DNA from: a candidate division TA06 bacterium | GTDB lineage: Bacteria > Edwardsbacteria > AC1 > EtOH8 | Direction: 5' to 3' | Assembly: GCA_016235665.1 (NCBI GenBank) | Contig: JACRJI010000008.1 | Location: 186,001 to 250,000 of the forward strand | Length of the DNA stretch: 64,000 nt | Shown here: positions 4,721 to 61,130 of the stretch, in pieces | Position numbering within the stretch: the stretch's first letter is position 1 | Layout: the number at the start of each line of letters is the position of its first letter | The notes under the pieces: generated by a model | Databases searched by the model: none | Told to the model about the DNA's origin: nothing | The model's input: only the letters and a program-made list of their open reading frames with translations | Made by a program: the position numbers and the translations under genes

Positions 4721-4773
4721 TTTAATCCTATTATTATGTTTAATGGCTGTCAATCTTAATTCTTTACAATTAT

Positions 4774-4966
4774 GTTCTTTTCTTTTTGTACCGCCAACAA
4801 GAAAAGAACCAAAAGAAAAAGCTCGTCGCAAAGAACCATCCGGGCGCTGTGCTTCTCGTTGCCGGCGGGCTTGTCTGAACTCGGGCTTTGGCCCAGCCCT
4901 CAAACACGCCAGACAAGCTTTTAACCGCCGTCAACTGCGATGCTCACTGATGGTTCTTAACGCGAC
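4774..4966 (+). repeat. Family A structured dispersed repeat, copy 1
   Basis: First copy of a dispersed intergenic element found six times here. It begins with an 11-bp inverted repeat (GTTCTTTTCTT / AAGAAAAGAAC). It contains nested stems (GTCTG..CAGAC around GGGCT..AGCCC) and ends with an outer stem in which AAGAACCATC near the left pairs with GATGGTTCTT on the right, next to GTCGC/GCGAC. It fills the uvrB-M28 gap and encodes no plausible protein. Confidence 0.85.
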
Positions 4967-5038
4967 ATACCCTGGTTGGTACCGGCCGAGCCCCGGTTGG
5001 GGAGGAAAAGAAATACATCAGCGTCATTCCGTGTCCTA

Positions 5039-7170: not shown

Positions 7171-7236
7171 AAAACAGAACCCCGCCGGCTTGTCCGCCGA
7201 AGCTTTAGCGGAGGCGGGAAGGCGGGGTTCTGTTTT
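7171..7236. repeat. Large hairpin containing a short dispersed repeat (family E)
   Basis: A 16-bp perfect inverted repeat (AAAACAGAACCCCGCC / GGCGGGGTTCTGTTTT) encloses a roughly 30-bp element beginning CTTGTCCGCCGAAGC. Related elements occur at about 35413, 53957 and 61138. It lies upstream of uvrB, and with T-rich flanks it may end transcription entering from the TPR gene. Confidence 0.65.
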
Positions 7237-7599: not shown

Positions 7600-8157
7600 C
7601 CGGTGATATGCCTCCTACCCCATGCAATACGTTTCCTACTCACTCGCTTTATACATCTTCTCCCATGCTATACACATTCTCTCCCTCGTTTTATGCTTCC
7701 TTTCCCATGATATACTCTTGCTTTCCCACGTTATACGCATTTTCTCCCTTGATATGTCCTTCCTTTCACATGAAATACGCTTCCTTACACTCGATATATG
7801 CTTGCTTACAGGTGAAATACGCTTGCTTAAAGGTGAAATGTGCCTGCTTAAAGGTGAAATATGCTTGCTTACAGATGAAATGCGCTTGCTTAAGGGTGAA
7901 ATATGGTTGCTTACTGGTAAAATATGCTTGCTTACAGGTTAAATGCGCTTGCTTAAGGGTGAAATATGGTTGCTTACTGGTAAAATATGCTTGCTTACAG
8001 GTTAAATACGCTTCCTTACGGGGGAAATACGGTTCCTTAAGGGTGGAATGTGCTTCCTTAGACGATGACGGAGCGTCCTTAAGCAAAGAAGGCCATTCCT
8101 TACGAGTGGAATGAGCCTCCTTAAGATTGGAATGTGGTTGCTTGTCAGTGAAATATG
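7600..8157. repeat. Degenerate 21-bp tandem repeat array (about 26 units)
   Basis: Consecutive 21-bp units can be aligned over about 550 bases. The best-conserved core, 7800-8020, follows the pattern GCTTGCTTACAGGTGAAATAC. A two-unit block is repeated almost exactly near 7880-8000. Some units contain inverted halves, for example CATTCC..GGAATG near 8093-8112. Because 21 is a multiple of three, several frames stay open on both strands, so the repetitive peptides encoded are most likely artefacts. The array lies between the TPR gene and uvrB. No spacer structure is present, so it is not CRISPR. Confidence 0.85.
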
Positions 8158-8176: not shown

Positions 8177-9607
8177 CTAAACGCTCTGGTTTTTAATAAT
8201 TTTAATACACGCTTCAATTTTTTCCTTTATTACCGGCAAGTTATACCCTTGGCATATTTCTAAAACCTTCTGATAATATTCCAAGGCTTTTTGTAGGTCA
8301 CCCAATGTCACATATATATTGCCTATGTTGCAAAGAGCATTGGTTTCACCTTCCTTGTTGCCAACAACTTGGTGAATCTCTAAAGATTTCTGATGAAGCT
8401 TCAAGGCCTTTGGCAGTTCGCCCAATGTCTGATAAACATTACCCATATTGCCGATGGCATTGGCTTCTCCTAGTTTGTTACCTATCTCTTGATGCATTTC
8501 TAAAGCTTTCTGATAATGGCCCAAGGCCTTTAGCGTTTCGCCTAATATCTCATACACATTACCTATGCAACAGAAAGCATTGGCTTCGCCTACCTTGTTA
8601 CCTATCTTTTGATGCATCTCCAAAGCCTTTTGCTGATGTTCCAATGCCTTTGGTAGTTTACCCAATATCCCATACACATTACCCATATTGCCTATAGCAT
8701 TGGCTTCTCCTAGTTTGTTGCCTGTCTCTTGATGTATTTCTAAAGCTTTCTGATAATGTTCCAATGCCTTTGGTAGTTCACCCAATATCCCATACACAAC
8801 GCCCATGTTGCCGTAAACACTAGCTTCGCCTTGCGTATTGTCTATCTCTTGATATATCTCCAGAGCCTTTTGATAATGCTCTAAGGCTTTTTGCATTTTA
8901 CCAAATGTTTTATATTCAATGCCAATGTTGCAGCGAACATTTGCTTCGCCTTCCTTATTGTCTATCTTTTGATATATCTCCAGAGCCTTTTGATAATGCT
9001 CCAAGGCTTTTGACATTTCGCCCAATGTCTGATGCACATTGCCCATGTTGCAGAGAGCATTGGCTACGCCTTCCTTGTTGTCTATCTCTTGATATATGTC
9101 CAAAGCTTTTTGATAATGTACCAATGCTTTGGGTAAATCGCCCAATATCTTAAATACAATACCCATGTTACAAAAACATGCCGATATGCCATATTTATCG
9201 TTAATTTCATTAAATATATCAAAAGCCTTTTTATAATCCCTCATGGCAATTTCATTGTTACCTTTATTCTGCCAGCACAATGCCATTTGGGAATAGATTA
9301 TCGCTTTATCCTTTTTTCTTGCACAGGGCAATAACTTTTCAAATATTTCTATGGCCTTATCCCATTCATAATTGGTCATAGCTTTAAGGCCATCCCTCAG
9401 AAGCCCCTGTATCTTTGTATTCGCTCGTTCAGGGAGACCATTAAGATAAAGCTCCACCTTGGATGACTGTTCAACTTGCTTTTGTAGTTCCTTTATCTCG
9501 GCTAGAATATTTTGTGCATCTTTCTTTGAAGCACTATTACGCCAAAAAAGCAGTCCAAATAAGCCGCCCGCTAATATACTAAGTATAGTTATTGATTCCG
9601 TAGACAT
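8177..9607 (-). CDS. Membrane-anchored TPR repeat protein (nine 40-aa repeats)
   Basis: A 476-aa protein with an N-terminal membrane helix (ILAGGLFGLLFW), a short coiled segment (IKELQKQVEQ), and then nine consecutive 40-residue tetratricopeptide units from about residue 105 to 465. Most follow the pattern GEANAxxNMGNVYxxLGxLPKALEHYQKALEIHQ. The 40-residue spacing, rather than 34, resembles kinesin-light-chain/LGN-type TPRs that bind partner peptides. The repeats are very alike, also as 120-bp DNA units, which suggests recent expansion. No enzymatic domain and no operon partner are visible, so the partner is unknown. The 21-bp array begins right after the stop. Confidence 0.85.
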   Translation of the reverse strand: MSTESITILSILAGGLFGLLFWRNSASKKDAQNILAEIKELQKQVEQSSKVELYLNGLPERANTKIQGLLRDGLKAMTNYEWDKAIEIFEKLLPCARKKDKAIIYSQMALCWQNKGNNEIAMRDYKKAFDIFNEINDKYGISACFCNMGIVFKILGDLPKALVHYQKALDIYQEIDNKEGVANALCNMGNVHQTLGEMSKALEHYQKALEIYQKIDNKEGEANVRCNIGIEYKTFGKMQKALEHYQKALEIYQEIDNTQGEASVYGNMGVVYGILGELPKALEHYQKALEIHQETGNKLGEANAIGNMGNVYGILGKLPKALEHQQKALEMHQKIGNKVGEANAFCCIGNVYEILGETLKALGHYQKALEMHQEIGNKLGEANAIGNMGNVYQTLGELPKALKLHQKSLEIHQVVGNKEGETNALCNIGNIYVTLGDLQKALEYYQKVLEICQGYNLPVIKEKIEACIKIIKNQSV

Positions 9608-35172: not shown

Positions 35173-35265
35173 TTTGAACCATCCGTTTTGAATATTTGAG
35201 ATTTTATGTTATGTTTACTCAACAACCTTTGGAAACAAAATACTCAACCGGTGCCAGCCCCGTAA

Positions 35266-35559
35266 GTCGCGTTAAAACGATCAGTGAGCATCGCAGTTGA
35301 TGGCGGTTAAAAGCTTGTCTGCGCCTGTTTGAGGGCTTAGCCAAAGCCCGAGTTCAGACAAGCCCGCCAGCAACGAGAAGCGCAGCGCGGGCCCGCTGAA
35401 GCCTTGCTTGCCCGCCGAAGCTTTGCGTAGGCAGGGCGTAAGCGTGGCCCGGAGAGTTTTAAGCGACGAGCTTTTTCTTTTGGTTCTTTTTCTGGGAGCC
35501 TGCCCTGAGCAAGGCAACCTGCCTTGCAAACGAAAGGGGCGGCACAAAAAGAAAAGAAC
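35266..35559 (-). repeat. Family A structured dispersed repeat, copy 2 (expanded)
   Basis: Reverse-orientation copy. It has GTCGCGTTAAAACGATC at one end and GAGAGTTTTAAGCGAC at the other (seven of nine arm bases pair), the inner GTCTG/CAGAC stem, and the terminal AAGAAAAGAAC. Two segments are expanded here: a family E element at about 35410-35445 and a TGCCCTGAGCAAGGC element in the distal hairpin. This shows short repeats inserting into the larger one. Confidence 0.8.
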
Positions 35560-42457: not shown

Positions 42458-42549
42458 TGCTTACCCCTTTTCTTTATTAATGTCTCTCTAAATTTATCAG
42501 TAAAAGAATAAAGCAGGTTCGGTAATAACTCCGATATTATCTCAACTAT

Positions 42550-42738
42550 GTTCTTTTCTTTTTGTGCCGCCAACAAGAAAAGAACCAAAAGAAAAAGCTC
42601 GTCGCTAAAAACTCTCCGGGCGTTGTGCTTCTCGTTGATGACGGGCTTGTCTGAACTCGGGCTTTGTCCAGCCCTCAAACATGCAGACAAGCTTTTTCCG
42701 CCATCAACTGCGATGCTCACTGATCGTTTTAACGCGAC
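42550..42738 (+). repeat. Family A structured dispersed repeat, copy 3
   Basis: Plus-orientation copy with GTTCTTTTCTT..AAGAAAAGAAC at the left, the GCTTGTCTG / CAGACAAGC stem around GGGCTTTGTCCAGCCC, and an outer arm AAAACTCTC opposed to GATCGTTTT (seven of nine pair), next to GTCGC/GCGAC. Lies between the kinase gene and the terminator at 42903. Confidence 0.85.
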
Positions 42739-42902
42739 TTACCGAGGTTGGCACCTGAAGTGCAATACCGAAGCGATCGCTAAGAATATTAATATCCCCT
42801 TGGCGTACTTCGCGGCTTCGCGGTTTGTGTTTAGGCTGTTTGCTAAGTATAAGGGATGATACTGCGTTTGGCAAGGGGTGTCAATAGTATTTTGGGGAAT
42901 TA

Positions 42903-44227: not shown

Positions 44228-46786
44228 TTAAAACGGCAGTCTGGTTTCCTTGTCATCTCTTGGTGCCATTATCTCTCTGAACTTATTATACGGATACTGC
44301 TCAAACACTTTCTGATCCACCCGCACAAAGCGCCACTTGTTGCCGGTGTTCTTCTCAGCGTCCTGGCACCACTGAACAGCCCGGGCGTCCTTGAATTGGA
44401 CGTTGACATCCTCCAGCCCCTTGGTTTCCACCAAAACATGCTCATTGCCAGTTGTAAGAACTATGAAATCCGGGTAATACATGCGCCGGCTGCTTTCCTT
44501 GTCCTGGTATTCTATGAAAAAGCCGACTTTGCCGGGCAGTTTGCAGAAGGCTTTTACATCCTCGGCCTGGTCCAGGAATTTGGCAAAATCCACCTCGTAG
44601 GCGTTATCGCAAGGTGCATAATTGAAAATGCACTTGTTGGCCGGGTAAACATTCAACTGCCAGACAAAGGGCGGTGTGTCGGACAGTTTTATTGTATCCG
44701 TCGGCTCCGGCTCCCTTTCAACATATGAGATATTCTTGAAGGCTTCCACAAAAGCGTCCACCATCTTCTTTTGGGTGTCGGCTGCGCTTAGGGCATAAAG
44801 CACCCTGGGATCTTCCAACTCAACCGGGGTTTGGAACAGCCTGGCGCTTACGTACTGTTTTACCAGGGGGTAGAACGTGGCAAAGGCCCCGTTTATCCTT
44901 AATTGCTTAAGTATCAGGTCGGTGTAATAGGCGATCACCGACTTGGTGTCCTGCGGCACCGGCAGGCCCCAGGTGCGTTTGACCACCTCCACCCCTTTTA
45001 GCATGTCCACCGCCACGTATTCGGTCTCAAGCACTTTGTTTTCCAATGGAACGCCTAATGATTTGACCTCGTCAATGTCCAGATCGTCGGCATTGAATTC
45101 ACGGATGACAATTCTGGGGCTTAATATGGGCAGTTCTATGTCGTATTCCAGTTTTTTCTCATTGGCAAAGATGGTGGTCAGGTTCAGGTTTTTGCCGGTC
45201 TCAAATTCGGCTATCTTTATCCCCTCCAGCTGTTCCAGTTCTTCCAGTATCTGGGTCAGGCCCGGAGGCCCGATGACCTCCAAAATATTGATGGCCGACT
45301 GGTTGGGGTCGGTGCTGGCCGGTTCGTTGGGGAACATTTTTCTTAAGCCCCGGCCGATCACCTGTTCGGCCAGCACGTTCCTGTGGCCGCCGTAGGGCCT
45401 TAAGCCCACTATGACGTTGACATTGCGGACGTCCCAGCCCTCGTTAAGCATCATGGTGCTGACGATGGCGCTGTGGGGGTTTTCATTGGAGTCAATGGTT
45501 TTGGCAAATTCCCGGGCCTGGGGGATGGATTCCTTCTTGATCTCTCCGGTGCTGTCGGTGTGGATCAGAAGGGTCTTGTTCTTCAGATCGGCCACATTGT
45601 TGACATAGTAAAATATCTCGTCGGCCTCTTCGTTACTGGAGCACTGGAAGAATATCACCGGTTTCTTATCCAATGGAATGAGCGCCTTGCGGTATTCCCG
45701 CCAGCGTCTTATCCCGGCGTCTATCCAGGCCCGGTAACGCTCCACCGCCTTTTTGGAGGCTATCTCCTCGGCCTTTTTGACAATGCCCCGCAAGGGCCGC
45801 TTGACTATGTTCTGTTCTATGGCTTCCCTTAGGGTGAAGTCGGAGATGATCCAGGGGAAAAGAGCCCCGTTCTCGTTGCGGGGGGTGGCCGAAAAGTCCA
45901 GCTCCATGTTTATGCCCCGGCCGTGGACCTTTTTGAGCTTTTTATGGAGATTCAGCAGTATCTTCTTCCATTCCTTCTCCACGCTGTAGATATGGTGGGC
46001 CTCGTCCTTTAGAATGGCGATATCGGGGCAGAGTTCCAGCACGGCCTTGATCCGGTTCTCCTGGTAGATGTCGTGCACATCTTTGACCTCGGGCAGGGCC
46101 ATCACCTCGTCCACAAACTGGTCGGTCTCCTTGCGTTTGCCCTCCCGCTTTTCCAGTTGCTGGATGTTGGTCAGGAACAAAACCCCTTCCGGCACGGTGT
46201 GAATGGGGTCTTCCTTGGTTATGACGGTTAAATTGAAATCGTCCTCCCACTCCGGCGGGATCAGGGGCAGTTGTTTGAATATCTTGCCGCCCACGTAATC
46301 CCGGCACAGCCGGTCGTAGATCACGTTCTTCTCCCCGGCTATCAGCAGGAACTTTGAGGTATAGTCTGGGGACTTTTCGTATTGGTGGTTGAAGTACTGC
46401 CAGACGATGCCCAGGGCCATGACGAATGTCTTGCCGCTTCCGGTGGCCATTTTAAAGGCGTAGAGCGGGTATTGGTCAAAAGAGGGGTCATAGCCCATGA
46501 TCGGCCCGTCGCCGAAATCGCGGGCCAGGTCTATGAAGTTGCGTTTTTTAAGGACTTCGTAGGTGTAGATCAGGGTCTCTATGGCCTCGCGCTGGCAGGT
46601 CCAATAGGAAAAGGGTTCGCCAAAGGCTATGTGGTCTTCGGAGAACCAGTATTGCAGAAGGCGCCGGGTCGTGAGCGTGGCGTTCTGGTAGTTGCTATCG
46701 CGCCAGGAGGCAACGGCGGAACGCAGGCGGTTGGCGAGGTAGGTTTTTGAAGGCTGGCGTATATTATTGCTGTTCACTTGGGTCAT
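44228..46786 (-). CDS. Type III-like restriction enzyme Res subunit (helicase-nuclease)
   Basis: An 852-aa superfamily 2 helicase-endonuclease, last gene of the defence operon. ATGSGKT (residues 114-120) is motif I, DEAHHIY is motif II, DFSATPRN is motif III, and VSTMMLNEGWDVRNVNVIVGL and QVIGRGLRK are motifs V and VI. The C-terminus has a PD-(D/E)XK-type site, MYYPDFIVLTTGNEHVLVETKG. Related Res proteins normally start about 60-100 residues earlier with a PIINSPF..RHFRFD..EGRRxSxYF leader. Here the protein begins just before the LRSAVASWRDSNYQ region, and that leader is found instead at 53850-54032. The ATG shares one base with the nuclease stop (TAATG). Confidence 0.9.
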   Translation of the reverse strand: MTQVNSNNIRQPSKTYLANRLRSAVASWRDSNYQNATLTTRRLLQYWFSEDHIAFGEPFSYWTCQREAIETLIYTYEVLKKRNFIDLARDFGDGPIMGYDPSFDQYPLYAFKMATGSGKTFVMALGIVWQYFNHQYEKSPDYTSKFLLIAGEKNVIYDRLCRDYVGGKIFKQLPLIPPEWEDDFNLTVITKEDPIHTVPEGVLFLTNIQQLEKREGKRKETDQFVDEVMALPEVKDVHDIYQENRIKAVLELCPDIAILKDEAHHIYSVEKEWKKILLNLHKKLKKVHGRGINMELDFSATPRNENGALFPWIISDFTLREAIEQNIVKRPLRGIVKKAEEIASKKAVERYRAWIDAGIRRWREYRKALIPLDKKPVIFFQCSSNEEADEIFYYVNNVADLKNKTLLIHTDSTGEIKKESIPQAREFAKTIDSNENPHSAIVSTMMLNEGWDVRNVNVIVGLRPYGGHRNVLAEQVIGRGLRKMFPNEPASTDPNQSAINILEVIGPPGLTQILEELEQLEGIKIAEFETGKNLNLTTIFANEKKLEYDIELPILSPRIVIREFNADDLDIDEVKSLGVPLENKVLETEYVAVDMLKGVEVVKRTWGLPVPQDTKSVIAYYTDLILKQLRINGAFATFYPLVKQYVSARLFQTPVELEDPRVLYALSAADTQKKMVDAFVEAFKNISYVEREPEPTDTIKLSDTPPFVWQLNVYPANKCIFNYAPCDNAYEVDFAKFLDQAEDVKAFCKLPGKVGFFIEYQDKESSRRMYYPDFIVLTTGNEHVLVETKGLEDVNVQFKDARAVQWCQDAEKNTGNKWRFVRVDQKVFEQYPYNKFREIMAPRDDKETRLPF

Positions 46787-47358
46787 TATTGTAGTTTATG
46801 AAATTTTGCAAGTATTTTCTTAAGTTCTTGTTCATTTAACCCGTTTGTATAATAGCAACCGTTATAATAAGGTTCGTATAACATTGGATCTAAATTGTCA
46901 TCGAAAACGACACCAGCATAGCCAGTGCTTACAATTAATCTCATTTCTTCATTTTTGTGTTTTTCTGGTACTAACTCAGATTCAAGAAATCGGTCATACA
47001 CATAACTTGCTAATTTATTTAATTCTTTATGGTCTTCTTCACTTAGCTGCGCTGGTTTATCATTTTCACCTGTAGTTTTTACTTGAATAAGCGGGATATG
47101 TATAATATCACCCTCTACATGAATACCCCACACATCTGCTGGCGACCTACTGCCCGCTGACCTGAAGACCAAATATTGTTTACCTCTTAATAATAGTTTG
47201 ACATAATCTTCACCCATAATACCAAGTTTAGTGCTGGTAAGATCATGCTCATCTAAAAAAGAGGCAACACGGGGGTTTGATTCTACCGTTAGGTATTGTT
47301 TTTGCTCCGTATTATACAAAGCAACGGTTTCGTCCATAAATTGTTTAAACCAGCTCAT
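46786..47358 (-). CDS. PD-(D/E)XK nuclease-like protein in the RM operon
   Basis: A 190-aa AT-rich gene starting MSWFKQFMDETVALYN at 47358, with AGGAGG six bases upstream. The segment LGIMGEDYVKLLLRGKQYLVF, then SPADVWGI, then IPLIQVKTTGEN has the E..D..QxK spacing of a PD-(D/E)XK restriction-like fold. No established family was recognised beyond that. It is coupled to res by a one-base overlap. Possible roles are an extra cutter or a regulator of Res activity. Confidence 0.65.
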   Translation of the reverse strand: MSWFKQFMDETVALYNTEQKQYLTVESNPRVASFLDEHDLTSTKLGIMGEDYVKLLLRGKQYLVFRSAGSRSPADVWGIHVEGDIIHIPLIQVKTTGENDKPAQLSEEDHKELNKLASYVYDRFLESELVPEKHKNEEMRLIVSTGYAGVVFDDNLDPMLYEPYYNGCYYTNGLNEQELKKILAKFHKLQ

Positions 47359-47368
47359 GATTAACCTC

Positions 47369-50062
47369 CTATATCCCATATTTCTGTTTTCTTATTTCAA
47401 AAGCAGCGTTACCACCCTCTAATGTATTTTTTACGATTTCTTTCATCTCGTTGTCATCTATTGAACCAACAACGCCATCTTTAATATTCGCCTGATTTTG
47501 CGACGCTTCTAATGGTACAATTAATTCAGCGTCGCCCAATACGGGTAAATTCGCATTATGTGTAACCACGATGAATTGTCGTCTTTCTTTTTCATTCCTC
47601 AGCCTATTAACAATATCATTTACGATAAACGCATTATCTAAATCATCTTCTGGCTGGTCAATCACTAATGGATATGGATTTTCAAGTAATATCAACATTA
47701 ATAACGCTGTGCATTTTTGGCCTACCGATAAATTATCAATATTTCTGTATATTGGGTTTTCTTTTGTCCCTAAATTCAATTCTATAAAAGCTACAGTAGG
47801 AATTTCAAGCAGCTCCATTTCCATCATTGCATCATTAATAAGACTTTTACATATTGATTGTGCAGTTGCAGGCTGTATATCATATTTTTTCGAGAGTGCA
47901 TCTGGTCCAGATTTTACGGTATTAGTAAATTCCAATATATTAAACCCGACACTAGACGTTATTTTAGTTATTTGCTCTTCTCTTGCACCCGATTTCAACT
48001 GCCTTATATATCTTACGAATTCACTCTTGTCTTCTTGATATTTCAATATTATTTGCAAAGTTCCCGCTAATTTATCATTGATAGCATTGATTATCTCATT
48101 ACTCTTTCTAAATACCTGCCCCCTTTTATCTTGCAAATCTGCTAATAGATCATTTCTCTTTTTCCCAACAATTACTAACTTTTCTTTGTTCTTGTCACAA
48201 TTCTTTTTCTTATCTCGCAATGCACCAACACGCTGTTCAAGTTTAATCAATTCGTTGGGATCAACATCTTTGATTGTCTTTTGCAATTCCCTTAATGTTT
48301 CGCCATATCTTTCATTTTGCTTGTGATTCAATTCATTCCATTTTTCATTTAATGCATTATATGAGGCAATTGTCTTGTCATATGCCTCCGCAATATTGGC
48401 AATATTTGTGTCAACTGCACCTTGGAGTGAATTTAAAAGACTTTCTAATTCTTTTAACAACTGATAATTTGGTAGTTTGTCATCATCACTTATTTCTATT
48501 TTCAAATCAATACTGTTTTTAAACTGTCCTGCAATTCTTTTTAATGCATTTAATTTATCACTGCTCTGTTTTAGTATATATTCTTCTTTTGAATATAATC
48601 TTTTCTCATTAAGCTTATCATTTATTCCTATTGTTTTATATGCTTTAATCTTTTCCTCAATAGATGGCAACAACGCTATTTCTTCTTCATCGCTTTGTAT
48701 TAATTTTAGTAATGCCTTTATATCATCTTTTGTTTTTGATAAACTAATTTTTATTTGTTTTATATTTTCTTTATCCCCATCTGTTTGATTGCCAATAAAT
48801 CTATCTAATAATTTTAATTGAAATGCTCTATCCTTTGATATTTCATATATTTCTTTTTGACTATACACCTCAAGACCCATAATATCTTTGGGCCGCAATT
48901 CTGTTTTTTCACCACTTTCAATATCTTTAACTACGGGTGATTCCGGGTATGTTCTTTCAAGCAAATACCTCCTTGGGCTGGGTTCATGGGTTTCCAATAA
49001 TAGTGATATTTTAGAACCACTTTTAAAAACATTTTTCAAAACATCATCATTTTGTTCTTCAATTTTATCAACTGTAGATTTAACATCAAAAGCGTATCTT
49101 ATTGTTTCTATTATCGTAGATTTACCTGTCCCTTTCCCGCCAATAACACAGTTTAAATTATCGTTAAACCTTATATCTATGCCATTCAAAAAGCCACCTT
49201 CCCATTTTGCAGCTATTATCTTTGAGTATCTAGGTGCCTGAACTGGTATTTCATTGCTTAATCGAATCCGTGATTCCCAGTCTAAAAATGCTTCCCTCAA
49301 ACCTTCTATTGTAAGTGAGCTCATTTTAATATATGTATATTTGCTACCTATCTCGTCCAATGATTTTGCATCTGATGAATTTAGGCATGCAATGGGAAAT
49401 TTCCTTTTATATAAATCTAATTTGTTTAAAACAGCTTCCGATTCGAATTTGCCAAGTTTGTTTTTCTCTGCTGGTATTTCACCAGCTAAAAGCTCTTGAT
49501 TAGTAAATATATTAATTCTGATCTGTCCTTCCGTTTTCGCCAACAATCCATTACTTGAGGACATATGTGCAGCAATACAAATACCATTATTTTTCTTAAC
49601 TTCTTCAATAATTGAATTTGCATCTTTTTCCGCTGCTTTTGGTGTATTGTCGGGGAAAAAACGATTCCCAGGCAATAATCCAAATTGTGATATTAAACCA
49701 TCTAACTTTTCCGAACCAATATCATCATTAAACAAGCATAGCAAATGTATTCCATCCGAACCACTCATTGTGGTAATTTCAAAACCTGGAAATACTTTTA
49801 TTGGTTTCCCTTTGGCAGCGTTTATTATTAAATCTGCCCACGTTACATCGTTATGTTCAGTTATACCGATTATTGCCAATTTCTTTTCTATCGCTTTATT
49901 GACAAATTCTAAAGCATATTGTTTTTTCCATTCAGCGTCATTAGTATTTATACCAGTAGGTTTTTTAAAGTGGTGCCAAAAAGGCGTATGTATATGTAGA
50001 TCAGCGCGGTAAAATACTGCACCATTTTGCTTATTCAATATTTCATCAAATATACTGCTCAT
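47369..50062 (-). CDS. PHP-SMC fusion ATPase (TrlF/ppl-like)
   Basis: An 897-aa, strongly AT-rich gene. The N-terminal 280 residues form a PHP phosphoesterase domain: DLHIHT at 21-26, TEHND at 68-72, PGFE at 92-95, AAHMSS and NSSDAKSLDEIG. An SMC/RecN-like ATPase follows, with Walker A GGKGTGKST (308-316), a long charged coiled coil (about 430-700), the ABC signature LSVGQ (778-782), Walker B VIDQPEDDLD and the H-loop VVTHN. This architecture is the TrlF-family/ppl type; I recall ppl as a reported single-gene phage-defence system. ATG overlaps the methyltransferase C-terminal ORF stop by four bases, so it is built into the operon. It ends in TAG. Confidence 0.88.
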   Translation of the reverse strand: MSSIFDEILNKQNGAVFYRADLHIHTPFWHHFKKPTGINTNDAEWKKQYALEFVNKAIEKKLAIIGITEHNDVTWADLIINAAKGKPIKVFPGFEITTMSGSDGIHLLCLFNDDIGSEKLDGLISQFGLLPGNRFFPDNTPKAAEKDANSIIEEVKKNNGICIAAHMSSSNGLLAKTEGQIRINIFTNQELLAGEIPAEKNKLGKFESEAVLNKLDLYKRKFPIACLNSSDAKSLDEIGSKYTYIKMSSLTIEGLREAFLDWESRIRLSNEIPVQAPRYSKIIAAKWEGGFLNGIDIRFNDNLNCVIGGKGTGKSTIIETIRYAFDVKSTVDKIEEQNDDVLKNVFKSGSKISLLLETHEPSPRRYLLERTYPESPVVKDIESGEKTELRPKDIMGLEVYSQKEIYEISKDRAFQLKLLDRFIGNQTDGDKENIKQIKISLSKTKDDIKALLKLIQSDEEEIALLPSIEEKIKAYKTIGINDKLNEKRLYSKEEYILKQSSDKLNALKRIAGQFKNSIDLKIEISDDDKLPNYQLLKELESLLNSLQGAVDTNIANIAEAYDKTIASYNALNEKWNELNHKQNERYGETLRELQKTIKDVDPNELIKLEQRVGALRDKKKNCDKNKEKLVIVGKKRNDLLADLQDKRGQVFRKSNEIINAINDKLAGTLQIILKYQEDKSEFVRYIRQLKSGAREEQITKITSSVGFNILEFTNTVKSGPDALSKKYDIQPATAQSICKSLINDAMMEMELLEIPTVAFIELNLGTKENPIYRNIDNLSVGQKCTALLMLILLENPYPLVIDQPEDDLDNAFIVNDIVNRLRNEKERRQFIVVTHNANLPVLGDAELIVPLEASQNQANIKDGVVGSIDDNEMKEIVKNTLEGGNAAFEIRKQKYGI

Positions 50063-50868
50063 TTCACCTTTACCTCCACTACTTTATTTGTATCATTCCC
50101 GAAAACATCCACCACTTTTACCAGCACCTGATACTTCCCCGGCTGTTCATACCTGTGCCGGGCCACGTATTCCACCTTAGGCTCCTTCTTGGTCCTAAAG
50201 CTCTGCCAGTAGTTGCGGAAAGTATCGCCCTTATAATCCCAGTCTATGGCCCAGTAGTCTATCAGCTCCCGGCTGTCCTTGATCTTGGCGGATATCTCCG
50301 CCAGATCTCCGTTGGGCGGGATCTGGAAGTCCGTTATCTTAAGGCTGAACTCCCCGTCCTTGAACTTGGTCTCCACCTCTAAGTAGGCCACCTCGGCGAA
50401 CTTGATGTGCTTAAGAACTTCTTTGCTTACCGCCTCCTCCGGCAGTTTTAAAAGCTGGAAATCAAAGCCCACCAGAGCGGCCTTGATCTCGTTGACCGCC
50501 GGTATTTGGATAAGCTTTAAATCCACCCCGTTCTTCTTGGCCTGCTCCTTGGCCAGGTTGTTCACCTCGTAGCTCCACTCCCAGCCCAAAATATCGGCCT
50601 TGTTGAAATTGGCCGCCCGGCAGGCCACCACCACCTTTTCTATTTCCTCCATGGTAATGGGCGCGTTAAGAGGCCCCACGTGCACCACCCGGCCGGCCTT
50701 GTTGCCGTGCAGGTAACGGTGGCCATTGAGCGGTTTGGCCTGGTAGAGTTTTAGCATGAAGGACAGGTAGTCCTCGGTTCGCTCCTGCCAGTAGACTGTT
50801 TCGTAGTTGCCGATGTTCCACAGTTCGAAAGGCCGGGCGGGGCGGTTGTATTTAGTGTTATCAGGCAT
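50059..50868 (-). CDS. Separate C-terminal domain of the type III-like DNA methyltransferase
   Basis: A 269-aa GC-rich ORF that matches, from RPFELWNIGNYE to FGNDTNKVVEVKVK, the C-terminal part of long type III-like Mod proteins. Recognisable landmarks are GHRYLHGNKAGRVVHVG, ITMEEIEKVV, ILGWEWSYE, FAEVAYLEVE, LIDYWAIDWDYKGDTFRNYW and YEQPGKYQVLVKVVDVFGNDT. In those proteins this follows directly on the methyltransferase core. Here it is an independent ORF with a weak ribosome-binding site, 1.7 kb from the core and separated by an AT-rich ATPase gene. It may still assemble with the core as a split Mod, or be a stranded remnant. Confidence 0.8.
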   Translation of the reverse strand: MPDNTKYNRPARPFELWNIGNYETVYWQERTEDYLSFMLKLYQAKPLNGHRYLHGNKAGRVVHVGPLNAPITMEEIEKVVVACRAANFNKADILGWEWSYEVNNLAKEQAKKNGVDLKLIQIPAVNEIKAALVGFDFQLLKLPEEAVSKEVLKHIKFAEVAYLEVETKFKDGEFSLKITDFQIPPNGDLAEISAKIKDSRELIDYWAIDWDYKGDTFRNYWQSFRTKKEPKVEYVARHRYEQPGKYQVLVKVVDVFGNDTNKVVEVKVK

Positions 50869-50967
50869 AATTTATTTTTCTTACCTATCCCTTTCTTTTC
50901 CAACTTTAAAAAGGGGTATTTTGTTTTCCATGCTACTATTTCATTACCTGTTCGCGCCTTGTATAAG

Positions 50968-52506
50968 CTACTTTATTTCCTCATATTCTGGCTCATCCGG
51001 AAAAGGGTGTACTATAATGCTTTTATCAACCTGTATTTTCAATTTCCTGTAAAACATAGGGTGTATTACACATGTATCCTCGGGTTGAATTACCAGCCTA
51101 TCATTCATTGCATATTCAAAATCAGCTTCTACCCAGCAACCTTCATGCTTCCTAACTCTTCCAACTATGCCAAGCTCAGCAACTAACTTGCGAAAATTCT
51201 GTGGTGAATATTCACCTTTAGGCCAATCAGGCGAACTTCTTGGCGCATATTTATCAAGCAATTTACCTTCAAATATAATTGGAAATTTTACCAATGTATC
51301 TATAATGTTTGCGACATTGTGGTAAATACTCTCATATGTATTTATTATTGAACTAGCTAAATTATCACATTCGTCATGCATGCCTTTTATAATATCACAT
51401 TGTGAGAATTTGGGAAATGTTTCATTAGCCTTCGATAGATATGCTATTTTATTACATATAGCTATTACTTCGCGAGGTTTCATGTGTGTGTGCCGCAATA
51501 TATATGGAAAGGTACTCTCCGATAAACCCATCTTATTTGAAATATTTTCATTAAAATATATATTCCAAAATTTCTTTCTAACAATTTCATACTTATCCCA
51601 TTCATAATCTTCTAATTTTTCGCAAATAATCTGATTTTGCTGAAGATATTTAAAATATCTCCAGCATGTTAATCTAAGAAGGTCTTTCGGTCTCCAATGT
51701 AAGAATATGGGGTTACTAATATATTTTGCGGGATTTCTTACATATGTTTCAGCAAGCTCAGGATAGATTTCCTCAGAAACAAATATTTTTAAATGTATAC
51801 CTTTATCAGAATATTGTAGGTTGAATTTTTTTGCGAATTCTATCATTGCTGCAATACAATAAATTAATAAATGGTTTTTTAGATCATATCTCTCCATTGA
51901 ATCAATGGTAATGAAAAAAGGCTTTTTCTTTGCTTGCTTGAGTATTATTGCTTTAGCGTCATTTGTTACTTGTGATGACAGAATATTCTCCAATTTTTTA
52001 TATATCATACCATCGCTATCAATATATTTATGCAACACACTTTTTACTATTTGTTTAAAAAGTGATAGGTAATTATCCTTCTCTTCGATTAAGAGACATG
52101 CTTTTTTTATATCAATATGAGTTTCTTTAAATTCTATAAATATTTTATACCATATATAGTATTCCCAAAGCTTAATAAGCCTTGGCACTATCACCTCTGC
52201 ATCAAAAGACACTGACCTGCTTATTTTCTCAGCAAGTTCTTCATACTCCATAGGGTTTTGTATATATATATTTTTTGTCGTTTTAAATTTATTTTGGAAT
52301 GTTAAATAATTTGCCAATGATGTTTTACCAGAACCTCGCCTACCAACAATTAAGTAACAATCTTTATCCAATACACCTTTATTAAATGGTGCATGTTTAA
52401 AATAATACTCACTATATTTATCGCCCATTACAGTAATTTCTTCTTCACAAGCAACTTCACCAAATGGGTGCTTAAGCGGATTCTCATCATTGATTACTTT
52501 GGGCAT
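50968..52506 (-). CDS. P-loop ATPase (Sll1717-like) inserted between the two Mod parts
   Basis: A 512-aa AT-rich gene. The N-terminal segment GEVACEEE..YYFKHAPFNKGVLDKDCYLIVGRRGSGKTSLANYL places Walker A GRRGSGKTS at residues 55-63, as in the Sll1717-type P-loop ATPases. An FFITIDSMERYD strand is a plausible Walker B. The C-terminal half contains winged-helix-like segments (WPKGEYSPQNFRKLVAELGIVGRV). Related STAND-like ATPases often occur in defence islands as sensors or effectors. AAAGG precedes the ATG at 52506, and it stops with TAG. Composition differs sharply from the Mod parts on both sides, suggesting insertion. Confidence 0.75.
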   Translation of the reverse strand: MPKVINDENPLKHPFGEVACEEEITVMGDKYSEYYFKHAPFNKGVLDKDCYLIVGRRGSGKTSLANYLTFQNKFKTTKNIYIQNPMEYEELAEKISRSVSFDAEVIVPRLIKLWEYYIWYKIFIEFKETHIDIKKACLLIEEKDNYLSLFKQIVKSVLHKYIDSDGMIYKKLENILSSQVTNDAKAIILKQAKKKPFFITIDSMERYDLKNHLLIYCIAAMIEFAKKFNLQYSDKGIHLKIFVSEEIYPELAETYVRNPAKYISNPIFLHWRPKDLLRLTCWRYFKYLQQNQIICEKLEDYEWDKYEIVRKKFWNIYFNENISNKMGLSESTFPYILRHTHMKPREVIAICNKIAYLSKANETFPKFSQCDIIKGMHDECDNLASSIINTYESIYHNVANIIDTLVKFPIIFEGKLLDKYAPRSSPDWPKGEYSPQNFRKLVAELGIVGRVRKHEGCWVEADFEYAMNDRLVIQPEDTCVIHPMFYRKLKIQVDKSIIVHPFPDEPEYEEIK

Positions 52507-52586
52507 GAATTAACCTTTCTTGGTTTTTGTGAATTAGCTTTTAGTTAAAAGCTATATATGCAATGTTGAATATATGTTGGTATGTT

Positions 52587-53837
52587 TTAGTTTGAATTTA
52601 CCCCCTTGCTCTCGTGTATCCCCAGCAGCCGTTTCCTGGTAACCTGTATTGCAAACTTGGAAAGGTCCGAACCAACCCACCGCCGGCCCAGCTTCTCGGC
52701 GGTTGCCAGCGTGGTGCCCGAGCCACAGAAGAAGTCGGCCACTACGTCCCCGGGTTTTGACGAAGCACTTATTATTCTCTGTAATAGCTTTTCTGGTTTT
52801 TGCGTGTCGTAATATATTTTTTCATCGGATTGGGATTGTGGATCAACAACATCTGTCCATATTGTTTGGCATACTTTACCAGGCAACTCGTCAAGATAAT
52901 ATTTAACTCTTGGTACGTCATTTTTCGAGATTATGATGCGCCCTTCTTTTTCCAACTCATCAATGGTTTTACCCATAGTGCCTGCCCAGTGTCGGCCTGG
53001 TGGTGGTGTTCTTTTCTTACCACAAAATGTTTTAGCGGGTCCCGAGCCTGCACCAGTAAGTGAAACCAACTGGTACTTACGGTTAGTTTTATTTTCAATA
53101 TTCTTAAAGGCTGAATTAATATAGCTTTCATCATAAGGTTGGTATTGCGTTTCCCAATAATAATCAAGTGTCTTACTGTAGAATAATATTAAATCCGCAT
53201 TCCTGCCATATTGCTTTGCGTCACTATGGCTGAAAACTGATTGCCTTGTTATTTCGTTTCTGAAGTTCTCATATCCGAACAACTCGTCCATCATTACCTT
53301 TATGTAATGTCCCACGTGCCAGTCCAAATGCACGTAAATACTCCCATTCTCTGCCAGCAGATCCTTCATCAACGCCAGCCGTTCATACATGTACTTCAAA
53401 TACGACGAGATCCCCCCGCTCCAGGTGTCCTTGTAGGCCCGCTCTTCAATAATGGAAGGCTCCTTCTCCAGCTCCTGGCCGTGCACCGTGGTCTTAACCG
53501 AGAAATCGGACCCGGTAAAAAATGGCGGGTCTATATAGATCAGATTGATCTTGCCGGCCCAGCCCTGTTTCAACAGCGAGCTCATCACCAACTTGTTGTC
53601 ACCCCAGATCAGCTTGTTCTTCCAGTCTTTGGGATACCCCTTGGGGTAATCCTTCTCCGGGTAGTACTGCTCCTGGCTGAACAGCCCTTCCTCAATGTCC
53701 TTCTGGCGGGGCTTGTTCACTGTCTCCACCACCTGGAACGGCAGGTTGGGCCGTTCTATGGGCATCTTCTCGCCCTTCTCCAGCTTGTCGTACTTGTCGG
53801 CCCAGATCAGCTCGATGTATTTTTTGTCGTTTGGCAT
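52587..53837 (-). CDS. Type III-like adenine-specific DNA methyltransferase, catalytic part
   Basis: A 416-aa beta-class N6-adenine methyltransferase core. It begins YIELIWADKYDKLEKGE and KLIWGDNKLVMSSLL, has catalytic motif IV DPPF at residues 103-106, and SAM motif I FFCGSG at about 369-374. The order IV before I defines the beta class. The region between them (about 53280-52790) is visibly AT-rich and includes the presumed target-recognition domain, compatible with its exchange. The protein ends at LLGIHESKGVNSN, where relatives continue into the RPFE domain found separately at 50059-50868. AGGAT lies five bases before the ATG. First gene of the operon. Confidence 0.88.
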   Translation of the reverse strand: MPNDKKYIELIWADKYDKLEKGEKMPIERPNLPFQVVETVNKPRQKDIEEGLFSQEQYYPEKDYPKGYPKDWKNKLIWGDNKLVMSSLLKQGWAGKINLIYIDPPFFTGSDFSVKTTVHGQELEKEPSIIEERAYKDTWSGGISSYLKYMYERLALMKDLLAENGSIYVHLDWHVGHYIKVMMDELFGYENFRNEITRQSVFSHSDAKQYGRNADLILFYSKTLDYYWETQYQPYDESYINSAFKNIENKTNRKYQLVSLTGAGSGPAKTFCGKKRTPPPGRHWAGTMGKTIDELEKEGRIIISKNDVPRVKYYLDELPGKVCQTIWTDVVDPQSQSDEKIYYDTQKPEKLLQRIISASSKPGDVVADFFCGSGTTLATAEKLGRRWVGSDLSKFAIQVTRKRLLGIHESKGVNSN

Positions 53838-53849
53838 CTTATATCCTGT

Positions 53850-54032
53850 TTAAAGAATTACAATAACCGGCATAAAATAGAAACTCTCCCTCCGGCCCTC
53901 AACGATCTGCTCGGTGATGCCGTTGTCGTCAAAGCGGAAATGCCGCTTCGGCGCAACTTGTCCGCCGTAGCTTAAGCGTAGGTGGATGAAGGGAGAGTTT
54001 ATTATCGGGTCATTTATTGTAACTGGCGGCAT
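53850..54032 (-). pseudogene. Fragment resembling the N-terminus of a type III-like Res protein
   Basis: The minus-strand frame reads VTINDPIINSPF, then about twelve odd residues, then PKRHFRFDDNGITEQIVEGR followed by RESFYFMPV. DPIINSPF..RHFRFD..G..EGRR.S.YF.P is the leader typical of Res subunits of this family, and exactly what the res gene at 44228 lacks. The odd residues are encoded by a family E short repeat (53957-53986) inserted after SPF. The frame ends 12 bases before mod, so it cannot yield a nuclease. It is either the displaced 5' end of the same res gene or a relic of a second system. Confidence 0.6.
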
Positions 54033-54040
54033 TCTTTAAC

Positions 54041-54299
54041 ACAAACCTTAAATATTAAGATGTTTTCGTGTAACCACAGTCTTGTTTTTATTCCGCATCA
54101 AACGGCCTGCCAACCCCCTGTAATAATACTATTATATATGGGTAAATGTCAATTTATTTATTGCCTTTTTACCGTTGTTACCTCCTTCGTAAAACCCGCC
54201 CTGCCAACCATTATTTACTAAAAAAACCACCTCCAAAACTGCCAACTGTTAAACTTAACCAAAAACTGCCTATATATATCCTAACCCCTTGCGCTACAA
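54041..54299. other. AT-rich gap upstream of the defence operon
   Basis: No gene is seen. The region is AT-rich and rather C-rich in its right half. Promoters for the operon should lie between here and 53837, but none is clear. Confidence 0.4.
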
Positions 54300-54594: not shown

Positions 54595-54924
54595 TTAGGC
54601 TTTGACCTCCCGTTTGCCCCTGGCCTTTTCCTTTACCATCTGGCCCCGCAGTTGTTTTATCCTTAGGGCCATCGGCGCGTTCTTGCCTATCACCCCCACC
54701 ATGGCGTCGGACATGGATGAGGCCAGCACGTAGGCGGCTTCCAGGGACTTCAGGGCCTGGTTGGTGGCTTTCACCAATTCTGCCTTAAGAGCCTCCTGCT
54801 TCATGTCGTCCTCCACCGAGGCTTTTAGGGCGGCATCCAGCGAGCTTAGCTTGGCCGCCGGGTTGAACCCCTGGGCTTTAAGGTCCGCCAGGTTGTCCTT
54901 TAACAACTGGGATACCATCTGCAC
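54595..54924 (-). CDS. Hypothetical alpha-helical protein
   Basis: At least 109 aa, predominantly helical and charged: LLKDNLADLKAQGFNPAAKL, VEDDMKQEALKAELVKATNQ, ending in a basic tail KEKARGKREVKA. The frame is coding-like further upstream (VRFNLTYAQKSAFVQM), with AAAGGAG at about 54966-54972 but no ATG near it. GTG 54924 and ATG 54918 are the nearest accepted starts, so the true N-terminus is uncertain. No family recognised. Its style resembles the fragment at 56658-56945. Confidence 0.55.
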   Translation of the reverse strand: MQMVSQLLKDNLADLKAQGFNPAAKLSSLDAALKASVEDDMKQEALKAELVKATNQALKSLEAAYVLASSMSDAMVGVIGKNAPMALRIKQLRGQMVKEKARGKREVKA

Positions 54925-54992
54925 GAAGGCCGATTTTTGGGCATAGGTCAGGTTGAACCTAACGCGCTCCTTTGTGTTTGGTTGATGTTTTG

Positions 54993-55087
54993 TTATAGCT
55001 ATAAGCTGTAAGCCTTCAGCTGTAAGCTTCTAATTTCCGGCTGCCGTTCCCTCGCAATTCACAATTCACAATTCACACTTTAGCCTT
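54993..55087. repeat. Heptamer-type low-complexity repeats
   Basis: AGCTGTAAGCCTTCAGCTGTAAGC followed by tandem CACAATT units. Confidence 0.7.
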
Positions 55088-55405
55088 TTAGCTGCGAGTT
55101 ACAATAACATTTACCAGGGTATTAAAAACATAATTTCCTACTCCATTTATCAACTTGTTCATCTTTCTTCTCTTGAATATCCCTTGGGTGTTGACCCACT
55201 GTTTCATCTCATACTGCAAACCCTCCACGCTTATTCTGTATTCATTGGCATTGACCTCCCCCTCGGCCAGTTGTCTTGTGTATTGCTTTAGCCTTTGGCT
55301 GTACTCCACGCCTTTTTCCTTTAACAGGTCATGGCCTTCCAGGAGCATGTCCTCAAATTCCCGGTATTCGGGGATCTGGTTCAACCGGTCGTTTATTCCG
55401 TTCAT
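55088..55405 (-). CDS. Hypothetical helical protein
   Basis: A 105-aa protein starting MNGINDRLNQIPEYREFEDM, with AAAGGAC upstream. Charged helices (LLEGHDLLKEKGVEYSQRLK, EYRISVEGLQYEMKQWVN) are followed by a hydrophobic C-terminus (VGNYVFNTLVNVIVTRS). It starts one base after the stop of the lipoprotein gene, so the two are coupled. Function unknown. Confidence 0.65.
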   Translation of the reverse strand: MNGINDRLNQIPEYREFEDMLLEGHDLLKEKGVEYSQRLKQYTRQLAEGEVNANEYRISVEGLQYEMKQWVNTQGIFKRRKMNKLINGVGNYVFNTLVNVIVTRS

Positions 55406-55406
55406 C

Positions 55407-55862
55407 TCATTGTCCTTTCCTGTTGGCATCGTGGTAGGGCGAATTTTTCCTGGCCTTCTCCCCGGCTATGGCCGCATTATGGTCATTGATCGCCTGCTCC
55501 CTGAGGTTGCTGACGAAGGTGGGCGACAGCGGATACCGGGCGTTTTGCAGTTCCATCAGGTTCATTTCAAAATGGTCTTTCAGTATTTTAAAGGCCGCTT
55601 TGCGCAGGTCGTCATTTTCCATCAGCCCGCCCTGATAGCCGTCTGCCTCCCGGCTTATCTTCTGCCAGGCATCCCGTTTGGCCTCAAGCCCGGCGGCATC
55701 CAGCGCCGGCATGACGGAACAGGTATCGATCAGGGCAAGGTGGGCTTGCTTCAGGCCCTCAAAGCTCTGCAAAACGCCGGCGTCAAACGGCGCCTCTTTG
55801 CAGCCGCCCAACGCCAGCAACAATGATGCTGCCCAGACGGCGGTAAAAATCCTTTTAAACAT
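55407..55862 (-). CDS. Predicted lipoprotein
   Basis: A 151-aa protein with a lipoprotein signal peptide (FTAVWAASLLLALGGC, lipobox LGGC at about residue 21), followed by a helical domain with KQAHLALIDTC and DHFEMNLMELQNARYP. AGGGG precedes the ATG by four bases. No family recognised. Lgt encoded at 14031 would acylate it. Coupled to the downstream 105-aa gene. Confidence 0.75.
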   Translation of the reverse strand: MFKRIFTAVWAASLLLALGGCKEAPFDAGVLQSFEGLKQAHLALIDTCSVMPALDAAGLEAKRDAWQKISREADGYQGGLMENDDLRKAAFKILKDHFEMNLMELQNARYPLSPTFVSNLREQAINDHNAAIAGEKARKNSPYHDANRKGQ

Positions 55863-57499: not shown

Positions 57500-57703
57500 C
57501 ATCTGTCAGCTGTCAGCCTTCAGCTTCAAGTTACCGGCTGCTGTCTACTGGGTAGTGTCAACCTTACCTTCACAATTCACAATTCACAATTCACATTTCA
57601 CATTTTACCCTTCACGCCGTACGCTAAACCCTATCCCCTGTTCGCATCGCCCCTACAGTTACCATTCAATATTTTGTGTTCTATAGGCTAACCAACCCCG
57701 GTT
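57500..57703. repeat. Low-complexity and family F repeats
   Basis: AGCTGTCAGCCTTCAGCTTCAAG, tandem CACAATT/CACATTT heptamers, and ATCGCCCCTACAGTTACC with CAATATTTTGTGTTCTATAG leading into family A copy 4. Confidence 0.65.
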
Positions 57704-57931
57704 GTCGCGTTAAGAACCATCAGTGAGCATCGCAGTTGACGGCGGTTAAAAGCTTGTCTGCATGTTTGAGGGCTGGCCAAAGCCCGAGTTCAGACAAGCC
57801 CGACGGCAGCGAGAAGCACAGCGCCCGGATGGTTCTTTGCGACGAGCTTTTTCTTTTGGTTATTTGCTGGCGCCTGCCCTGAGAAGGCTATTTACCTTGC
57901 AAACGAAGGGGCGGCACAAAAAGAAAAGAAC
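57704..57931 (-). repeat. Family A structured dispersed repeat, copy 4
   Basis: Reverse-orientation copy with outer arms GTCGCGTTAAGAACCATC and GATGGTTCTTTGCGAC perfectly complementary over ten bases, inner CTTGTCTG/CAGACAAG and GGGCT/AGCCC stems, and terminal AAGAAAAGAAC. A TGCCCTGAGAAGGC insert expands the distal hairpin. A family F hairpin, CGGGCGATTCATGCATCGCCC, follows at about 57965. Confidence 0.85.
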
Positions 57932-60429: not shown

Positions 60430-60643
60430 GGTTTTTCCTTTTTGTTCCATTAAGTTGAGTCCGGTGGTTCAGGATATTTCCCTTTGATGCAGATGATGAC
60501 GCACCTGGCAGGGCCAGAACTGACTGCTGGCGAAAGACTGCCGGCGCGGGCAGACCATGTACTCCGCCCCGGCCGGGAACAGACTGTGCTCGCCGTCGGG
60601 TTGTTTCACCGGGCGATATTCCGTAGGCTAACCAACCCCGTTT
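60430..60643. other. Possible gene remnant before family A copy 5
   Basis: The minus-strand frame from GTG 60609 to a TGA at 60469-60471 reads VKQPDGEHSLFPAGAEYMVC, then PRRQSFASSQFWPCQVRHHLHQREIS. It looks coding (Cys, His, Trp content), but it is only 46 codons and abuts repeats on its 5' side, so it may be the tail of a gene destroyed by repeat accumulation. Confidence 0.25.
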
Positions 60644-60840
60644 GTCGCGTTAAATACTATCAGTGAGCATCGCAGTTGATGGCGGTTAAAAGCTTGTCTG
60701 CATGTTTGAGGGCTGGCCAAAGCCCGAGTTCAGACAAGCCCGCCGTCAGCGAGAAGCACAGCGCCCGGATAGTATTTTGCGACGAGCTTTTTTCTTTTTG
60801 GTTCTTTTTCTTAGTTGGCGGTACAAAAAAGAAAAAGAAC
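60644..60840 (-). repeat. Family A structured dispersed repeat, copy 5
   Basis: Outer arms are AAATACTATC and GATAGTATTT, beside GTCGC/GCGAC. They differ from copies 1 and 4 at several positions, yet the partner arm has changed to match, giving direct covariation. The inner stems GTCTG/CAGAC and GGGCT/AGCCC are retained. Confidence 0.88.
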
Positions 60841-60859
60841 AATATGGGTTAGGGTATCG

Positions 60860-60940
60860 CGGAATATCTTACCGGGCGATTCATGAATCGCCCCTACAGT
60901 TACCATCCAATATTCTGTTTTCTGGAGGCTAACCAACCCC
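60860..60940. repeat. Family F hairpin and linker
   Basis: CGGGCGATTCATGAATCGCCC with CCTACAGTTACCATCCAATA, then GGCTAACCAACCCC. It joins family A copies 5 and 6, whose starts are about 300 bases apart, so the pair looks like a tandem composite unit. Confidence 0.7.
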
Positions 60941-60946
60941 TGTGTT

Positions 60947-61130
60947 GTCGCGTTAAATACTTGTCTGGCCTGTTTGAGGGATCGCCAAAGCCCGAGTTCA
61001 GACAAGCCCGACGGTAACGAGAAGCGTAGCGCCCGGATGGTTGGTTCGACAACGCTCACCACAAGTCATTTGCGACGAACTTTTTTCTTTTTGGTTCTTT
61101 TTCTTAGTTGGCAGTACAAAAAAGAAAAAT
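60947..61130 (-). repeat. Family A structured dispersed repeat, copy 6
   Basis: A shortened copy with a deletion in its left half. The new left arm AAATACTTGT is nevertheless nearly complementary to the right arm ACAAGTCATTT (one bulged base), beside GTCGC/GCGAC. The GTTCG-containing insert near 61041-61070 is not in other copies. Confidence 0.8.

Follow-up and report, generated by a model that had tools for sequence, protein, structure and literature searches.

Gene content of the locus

In the window (the whole stretch of DNA analysed, 64,000 nucleotides), a short open reading frame that resembles the beginning of a res gene is found directly in front of a complete type III-like R-M operon (Table 1). 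The stop codon of this frame, herein called the stub, lies 12 nt before the start of mod-N, whose relatives align from residue 1. For the 197-aa accessory protein, no family match was obtained in Pfam, NCBIfam or PADLOC.

Table 1. Features of the stub, the adjoining operon and the repeats in the window
Feature	Position	Strand	Basis
Upstream flank genes (109, 113, 151 aa)	54595..55862	-	tblastn against L084; common to the G003 locus
Promoter-like TTGACA-N18-TATTAT, upstream of the stub	54123..54152	-	consensus scan
res stub ORF	53850..54032	-	60 aa; first ~46 codons of a BPTD_3080-type res
Dispersed repeat copy ("family E"), core CGCTWAAGCTWCGGCGGACA, inside the stub	53951..53985	-	not present in G001 or G003; further copies in the genome and in congeners
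mod-N, N6/N4 DNA methyltransferase, intact start	52587..53837	-	PF01555; PADLOC MTase_III PDLC03633
Accessory gene, Sll1717-family P-loop ATPase, between mod-N and mod-C	50968..52506	-	NF047389
mod-C, separate C-terminal Mod part	50059..50868	-	PDLC03633 positions 364-615; relatives split likewise
Accessory gene, TrlF-family AAA-like ATPase with PHP domain	47369..50062	-	NF045780 above cut-off; PF02811
Accessory gene, 197 aa	46786..47379	-	ORF
852-aa Res of the type III-like system, complete	44228..46786	-	ResIII and endonuclease domains; N-terminus aligned with relatives
~200-bp repeat copies	4767-4967, 35262-35490, 42543-42742, 57658-57868, 60598-61042		

The family to which the operon (44228-53837) belongs has its mod gene split into mod-N and mod-C in all relatives in which both parts were observed. 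Various kinds of accessory gene occupy two fixed places, namely the gap between mod-N and mod-C and the gap between mod-C and res. In relatives, these accessory genes include short pairs of nucleotidyltransferase-like and HEPN-like genes, an HTH protein paired with a PIN-like protein and, at L019, several genes that by eye resemble a type III CRISPR effector. In the congener G007, a relative of the 852-aa Res with 74-92% identity lies at a contig end in two overlapping pieces in different frames (L057:15680-17355), with stops in the N-terminal piece; the system is thus decayed there.

The stub and its relation to the Res of the operon

The translation of the stub (MPPVTINDPIINSPFIHLRLSYGGQVAPKRHFRFDDNGITEQIVEGRRESFYFMPVIVIL, followed by the stop) comprises DPIINSPF, then a 12-residue stretch, IHLRLSYGGQVA, and then PKRHFRFDDNGITEQIVEGRRESFYFMPV, and it contains the N-terminal leader pattern NSPF..P.RHF.FDD.G......EGRR.S.YF.P. 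It matches positions 2-41 of the 970 positions of the NF046055 profile (restr_BPTD_3080, E 0.001) and shares 80% identity with residues 1-46 of the intact, 1015-aa BPTD_3080-type Res encoded in the related genome G001 (L055, 9820-12867). With the insert removed, the identity to this Res rises to 87% (E 1.7e-17), which is far beyond chance. An earlier, sequence-only reading had taken the frame for the usual leader of a Res family, and the profile and protein matches bear this out. Since the stub scores 17 bits against a family cut-off of 800 bits, and the helicase and endonuclease domains (~1000 aa) are absent, it is a fragment of a BPTD_3080 family Res and not a member protein.

Does this fragment belong to the res gene at the other end of the operon? 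The sequence-only reading had proposed that the res at 44228 begins without its leader, and that the stub is its true N-terminus, split off by an insertion of the mod/accessory block near the 5' end. The two parts do occupy ordered, non-overlapping sections of the NF046055 profile, with the leader on positions 2-41 and the 852-aa Res from position 64 onwards, but this collinearity, although found as that reading had expected, is not diagnostic, because it is to be expected for any pair of superfamily members. In 24 relatives of the 852-aa Res (at least 50% identity and a readable start; 40 named relatives overall), the protein has its own short N-terminus (MKPTELLHPDQRRPSKAY...), which aligns with the N-terminus of the 852-aa Res; a leader HMM detected a leader upstream of none of these 24 orthologues. 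This HMM recovered its positive controls, namely two stubs and the leader of a divergent Res in L054, and the test therefore had power. Judged by these alignments, the 852-aa Res is complete and needs no leader. Moreover, the stub belongs to a different Res subfamily, because it is 80% identical to the start of the G001 Res, whereas between the remainder of that protein and the 852-aa Res the identity is only ~24-30%. The order mod-N, mod-C, res, with res last, is also found in relatives of the operon, which speaks against such an insertion. The leaderless homologues and the closer match of the fragment to another subfamily refute the proposed split, which we regard as almost certainly wrong; a single ancestral gene composed of the leader and the 852-aa Res is ruled out by the same relatives and the same contrast in identity.

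The inserted repeat

The sequence-only reading had also noticed a repeat of family E behind SPF, and this is correct: it is a net in-frame insertion of 30 nt after NSPF (~33 nt replacing 3) that both G001 and G003 lack. Between NSPF and RHF, 64 of 64 related leaders are free of indels. For the core CGCTWAAGCTWCGGCGGACA, the genome yielded 24 near matches versus 2 for a reversed control, and two congeners yielded 46 and 26, while none was found in one other genus of the family. Two further copies of the ~30-bp imperfect palindrome occur in the window, at 35407-35423 and 7189-7213. The copy in the stub occupies the middle of a CTTCATGAAG palindrome that belongs to the intact res. Elsewhere in the genome and in relatives, copies are often found within the loop of a hairpin resembling a terminator (e.g. 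AGCCCAGCCCTT...AAGGGCTGGGCT), as if palindrome centres were the target of this dispersed repeat. One copy lies ~110 nt from a Y1-type transposase ORF (L006:1634-2080). Near copies were detected within ~1.5 kb of 4 out of 20 Y1_Tnp loci, in one case with 4 mismatches; a connection with Y1-type transposases, and a REP/RAYT origin of the element, are thus conceivable but weakly supported. Rickettsia palindromic elements are another kind of short palindromic repeat.

The window harbors other repeats as well. A dispersed repeat of ~200 bp (GTCGCGTTAA...CATCAGTGAGCATCGCAGTTGA and TTTTTCTTTTGGTTCTTT) recurs on both strands, with five or more copies. Two tandem arrays (7649-8125 and 8256-9275), built of 21-nt and 120-nt units, are probably within coding sequence.

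The locus in related genomes

The window genome (G000) belongs to one genus, G001 and G003 together to another, and all three to the same family. Among five family members compared at the locus, only G001 retains an intact BPTD_3080-type res. G003 has a stub of 44 codons, with its stop ~30 nt before a 988-aa Eco57I-type R-M gene, so that both stubs stand directly upstream of R-M genes that are unrelated. A whole-genome search with the intact Res found the remainder of a BPTD_3080-type res neither in G000 nor in G003. DNA similarity to the G001 res ends at nt ~137 of the coding sequence in the window and at nt ~131 in G003, i.e. the first 44-46 codons are retained and the breakpoints are 6 nt apart. 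This proximity suggests either one ancestral stub that travelled with its flank or a preferred point. As G001 and G003 are of one genus and G000 is of another, the intact res in G001 requires two truncations or recombination.

The flank genes of 109, 113 and 151 aa also neighbor the stub in G003; a sigma-54 regulator, a response regulator and a 108-aa gene are common to G001 and G003, a single small gene (76 aa) is common to G001 and the window, and the lipoprotein gene of the upstream flank also adjoins R-M genes in G002 and G005. Next to these neighbors, which are shared on the upstream side only, the R-M content differs in each genome: the type III-like system in the window, the BPTD_3080 system in G001, an Eco57I-type enzyme with Z1 in G003, a different Eco57I-like enzyme with a NACHT protein in G002, and a type I system in G005. 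With its partly matching upstream genes, the position thus looks like an R-M exchange locus.

It is very probable that the stub is a scar at such an exchange locus, at which one R-M system was displaced by another. An ancestor would have had a BPTD_3080-type system, presumably a working one, whose res started at the position of the stub; a version of this res is intact in G001. A replacement or deletion would then have removed res beyond approximately codon 46, and the complete type III-like operon (mod-N, ATPase, mod-C, TrlF, the 197-aa gene and res) would have been placed directly behind the leftover 5' end, before the dispersed 30-bp repeat inserted itself, in frame, into the stub. This order of events, including the late arrival of the repeat, is the one we infer, and recombination through the flanks would be a plausible route for the exchange, rather than a deletion followed by an insertion. 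Displacement is supported because G003 retains the same stub, ending within 6 nt of the end of the window stub and in front of a different R-M gene, because the rest of the old res is absent from both genomes, and because the leader resembles the G001 Res far more closely than the 852-aa Res resembles the remainder of that protein. It is further supported by the leaderless relatives, identified with an HMM whose controls were recovered, by upstream genes that are pairwise common among G000, G001 and G003 (and, for the lipoprotein gene, G002 and G005) while the R-M type is different in each, and by the repeat, which breaks a spacing that is otherwise free of indels. Several observations speak against displacement: synteny is partial, with a gene order that differs between G000 and G003 and a single small gene common to G001 and the window, neither a common right-hand flank nor a right edge of the exchange was found in the stretches compared, the intact res in G001 calls for two truncations or recombination, and the boundaries have neither repeats nor an integrase, the window operon also being without significant flanking direct repeats. 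The sequence-only reading had named the loss of a second res copy as an alternative history, and in view of the G003 stub, the absent remainder and the varied R-M content of the locus, this came close to the displacement proposed here.

Stubs and breakpoints in other genomes

In Chloroflexota, the genome G196 shares 931 bp of DNA similarity with the intact locus of G061, consisting of the flank and 43 res codons, and none thereafter, so that the break lies at nt ~129. In G255, a stub whose homology ends at codon ~49 immediately precedes a C5-methylase gene, and a Vsr gene follows at some distance. An old stub is common to G357, G127 and G143, with homology ending at codon ~65 in G357. In G563 (L160:1498-2121), a 234-aa frame fuses residues 1-66 of a BPTD_3080-type Res to the C-terminal residues 879-1010, an internal deletion that left the leader and the nuclease end. 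A few solo stubs were seen in 400 Chloroflexota genomes, stubs below 100 aa were absent from 395 genomes of a second phylum, that of G035, and in 33 genomes with Res relatives the significant leader hits lie in full-length genes, except for degenerate copies in G038. The idea that the solo leader is a conserved small gene was dismissed, as none of 10 plasmid hits had it and other surveys gave few or none.

These ends would agree with a preferred break or integration point at the 5' end of res (codon ~43-66), at which many independent losses produced stubs of similar length: the breaks at nt ~131, ~137 and ~129, the ends at codons ~49 and ~65, and the junction of residue 66 to 879 all fall there. 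However, the stub query consisted of the first 43-46 residues and missed shorter stubs, and stub lengths with a decaying distribution would accumulate close to this limit. The clustering near codon 45 is thus partly a matter of ascertainment, because the N-terminus itself was the query. Truncations to residues ~172 and ~305 also occur, and neither an integrase nor a repeat was seen at the junctions. We therefore consider a preferred break unlikely.

Has the stub been kept for a function, as a leader peptide or RNA that couples or regulates the R-M operon behind it? The stubs of G000, G003 and G255 lie within ~12-30 nt of the next R-M gene, the promoter-like sequence is part of a 60-bp block that is 90% identical in G003 and could drive the operon through the stub, and pN/pS between the stub and the G001 res is 0.24 (P ~0.002 against neutrality). 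The low pN/pS can, however, date entirely from the time when res was whole, several Chloroflexota stubs are not immediately followed by an R-M gene, and the second phylum yielded no short stubs. The insertion of the repeat into a spacing that is free of indels in all 64 leaders also argues against a function. We thus regard a functional stub as very unlikely; the scar left by displacement is probably inert, without a peptide function, in the lead region of the mod operon. It is likewise improbable that the first ~45 codons of a BPTD_3080-type res and their promoter region form a reusable left edge, either a preferred exchange point or a retained leader, behind which unrelated R-M operons are repeatedly installed, in two genera here and possibly in Chloroflexota.

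In-place swapping of R-M systems is usually inferred only from variable gene content. Displacement at this locus is an ordinary kind of event that is unusually well documented by its leftover, and if the nearly coincident breakpoints do mark a real exchange point, they would offer a handle on such swapping. The misleading reading of a split gene is thereby also corrected.

Comparison with known systems

Like type III R-M systems (Mod/Res), the window operon combines a Mod-like methyltransferase with a ResIII helicase-nuclease, but its subfamily differs in that Mod is made up of two genes throughout, with accessory defence genes between the parts. The BPTD_3080 family (NF046055), which was not named in the literature searched, is matched by the stub in the N-terminal 40 positions, and the intact G001 protein has the same leader; the stub differs in having ~46 of ~1000 codons, with an insertion and without the helicase or nuclease part. 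Family E shares with REP/RAYT and other short palindromic repeats (PMC2817692, PMC8266576) that it is a short, dispersed, imperfect palindrome in genomes with Y1-type transposases, but it is only weakly associated with Y1_Tnp genes and has a low copy number.

The locus as a whole resembles R-M exchange loci such as the enterobacterial immigration control region (ICR; PMC12707154), in which varied R-M or defence systems likewise occupy one chromosomal position between conserved neighbors. Here, the lineage is of the uncultured type with few genomes and the right edge is undefined; in contrast to the ICR, a piece of the earlier occupant remains at the left edge, and this leftover end would show directly the replacement of one R-M system by another at a fixed chromosomal locus.
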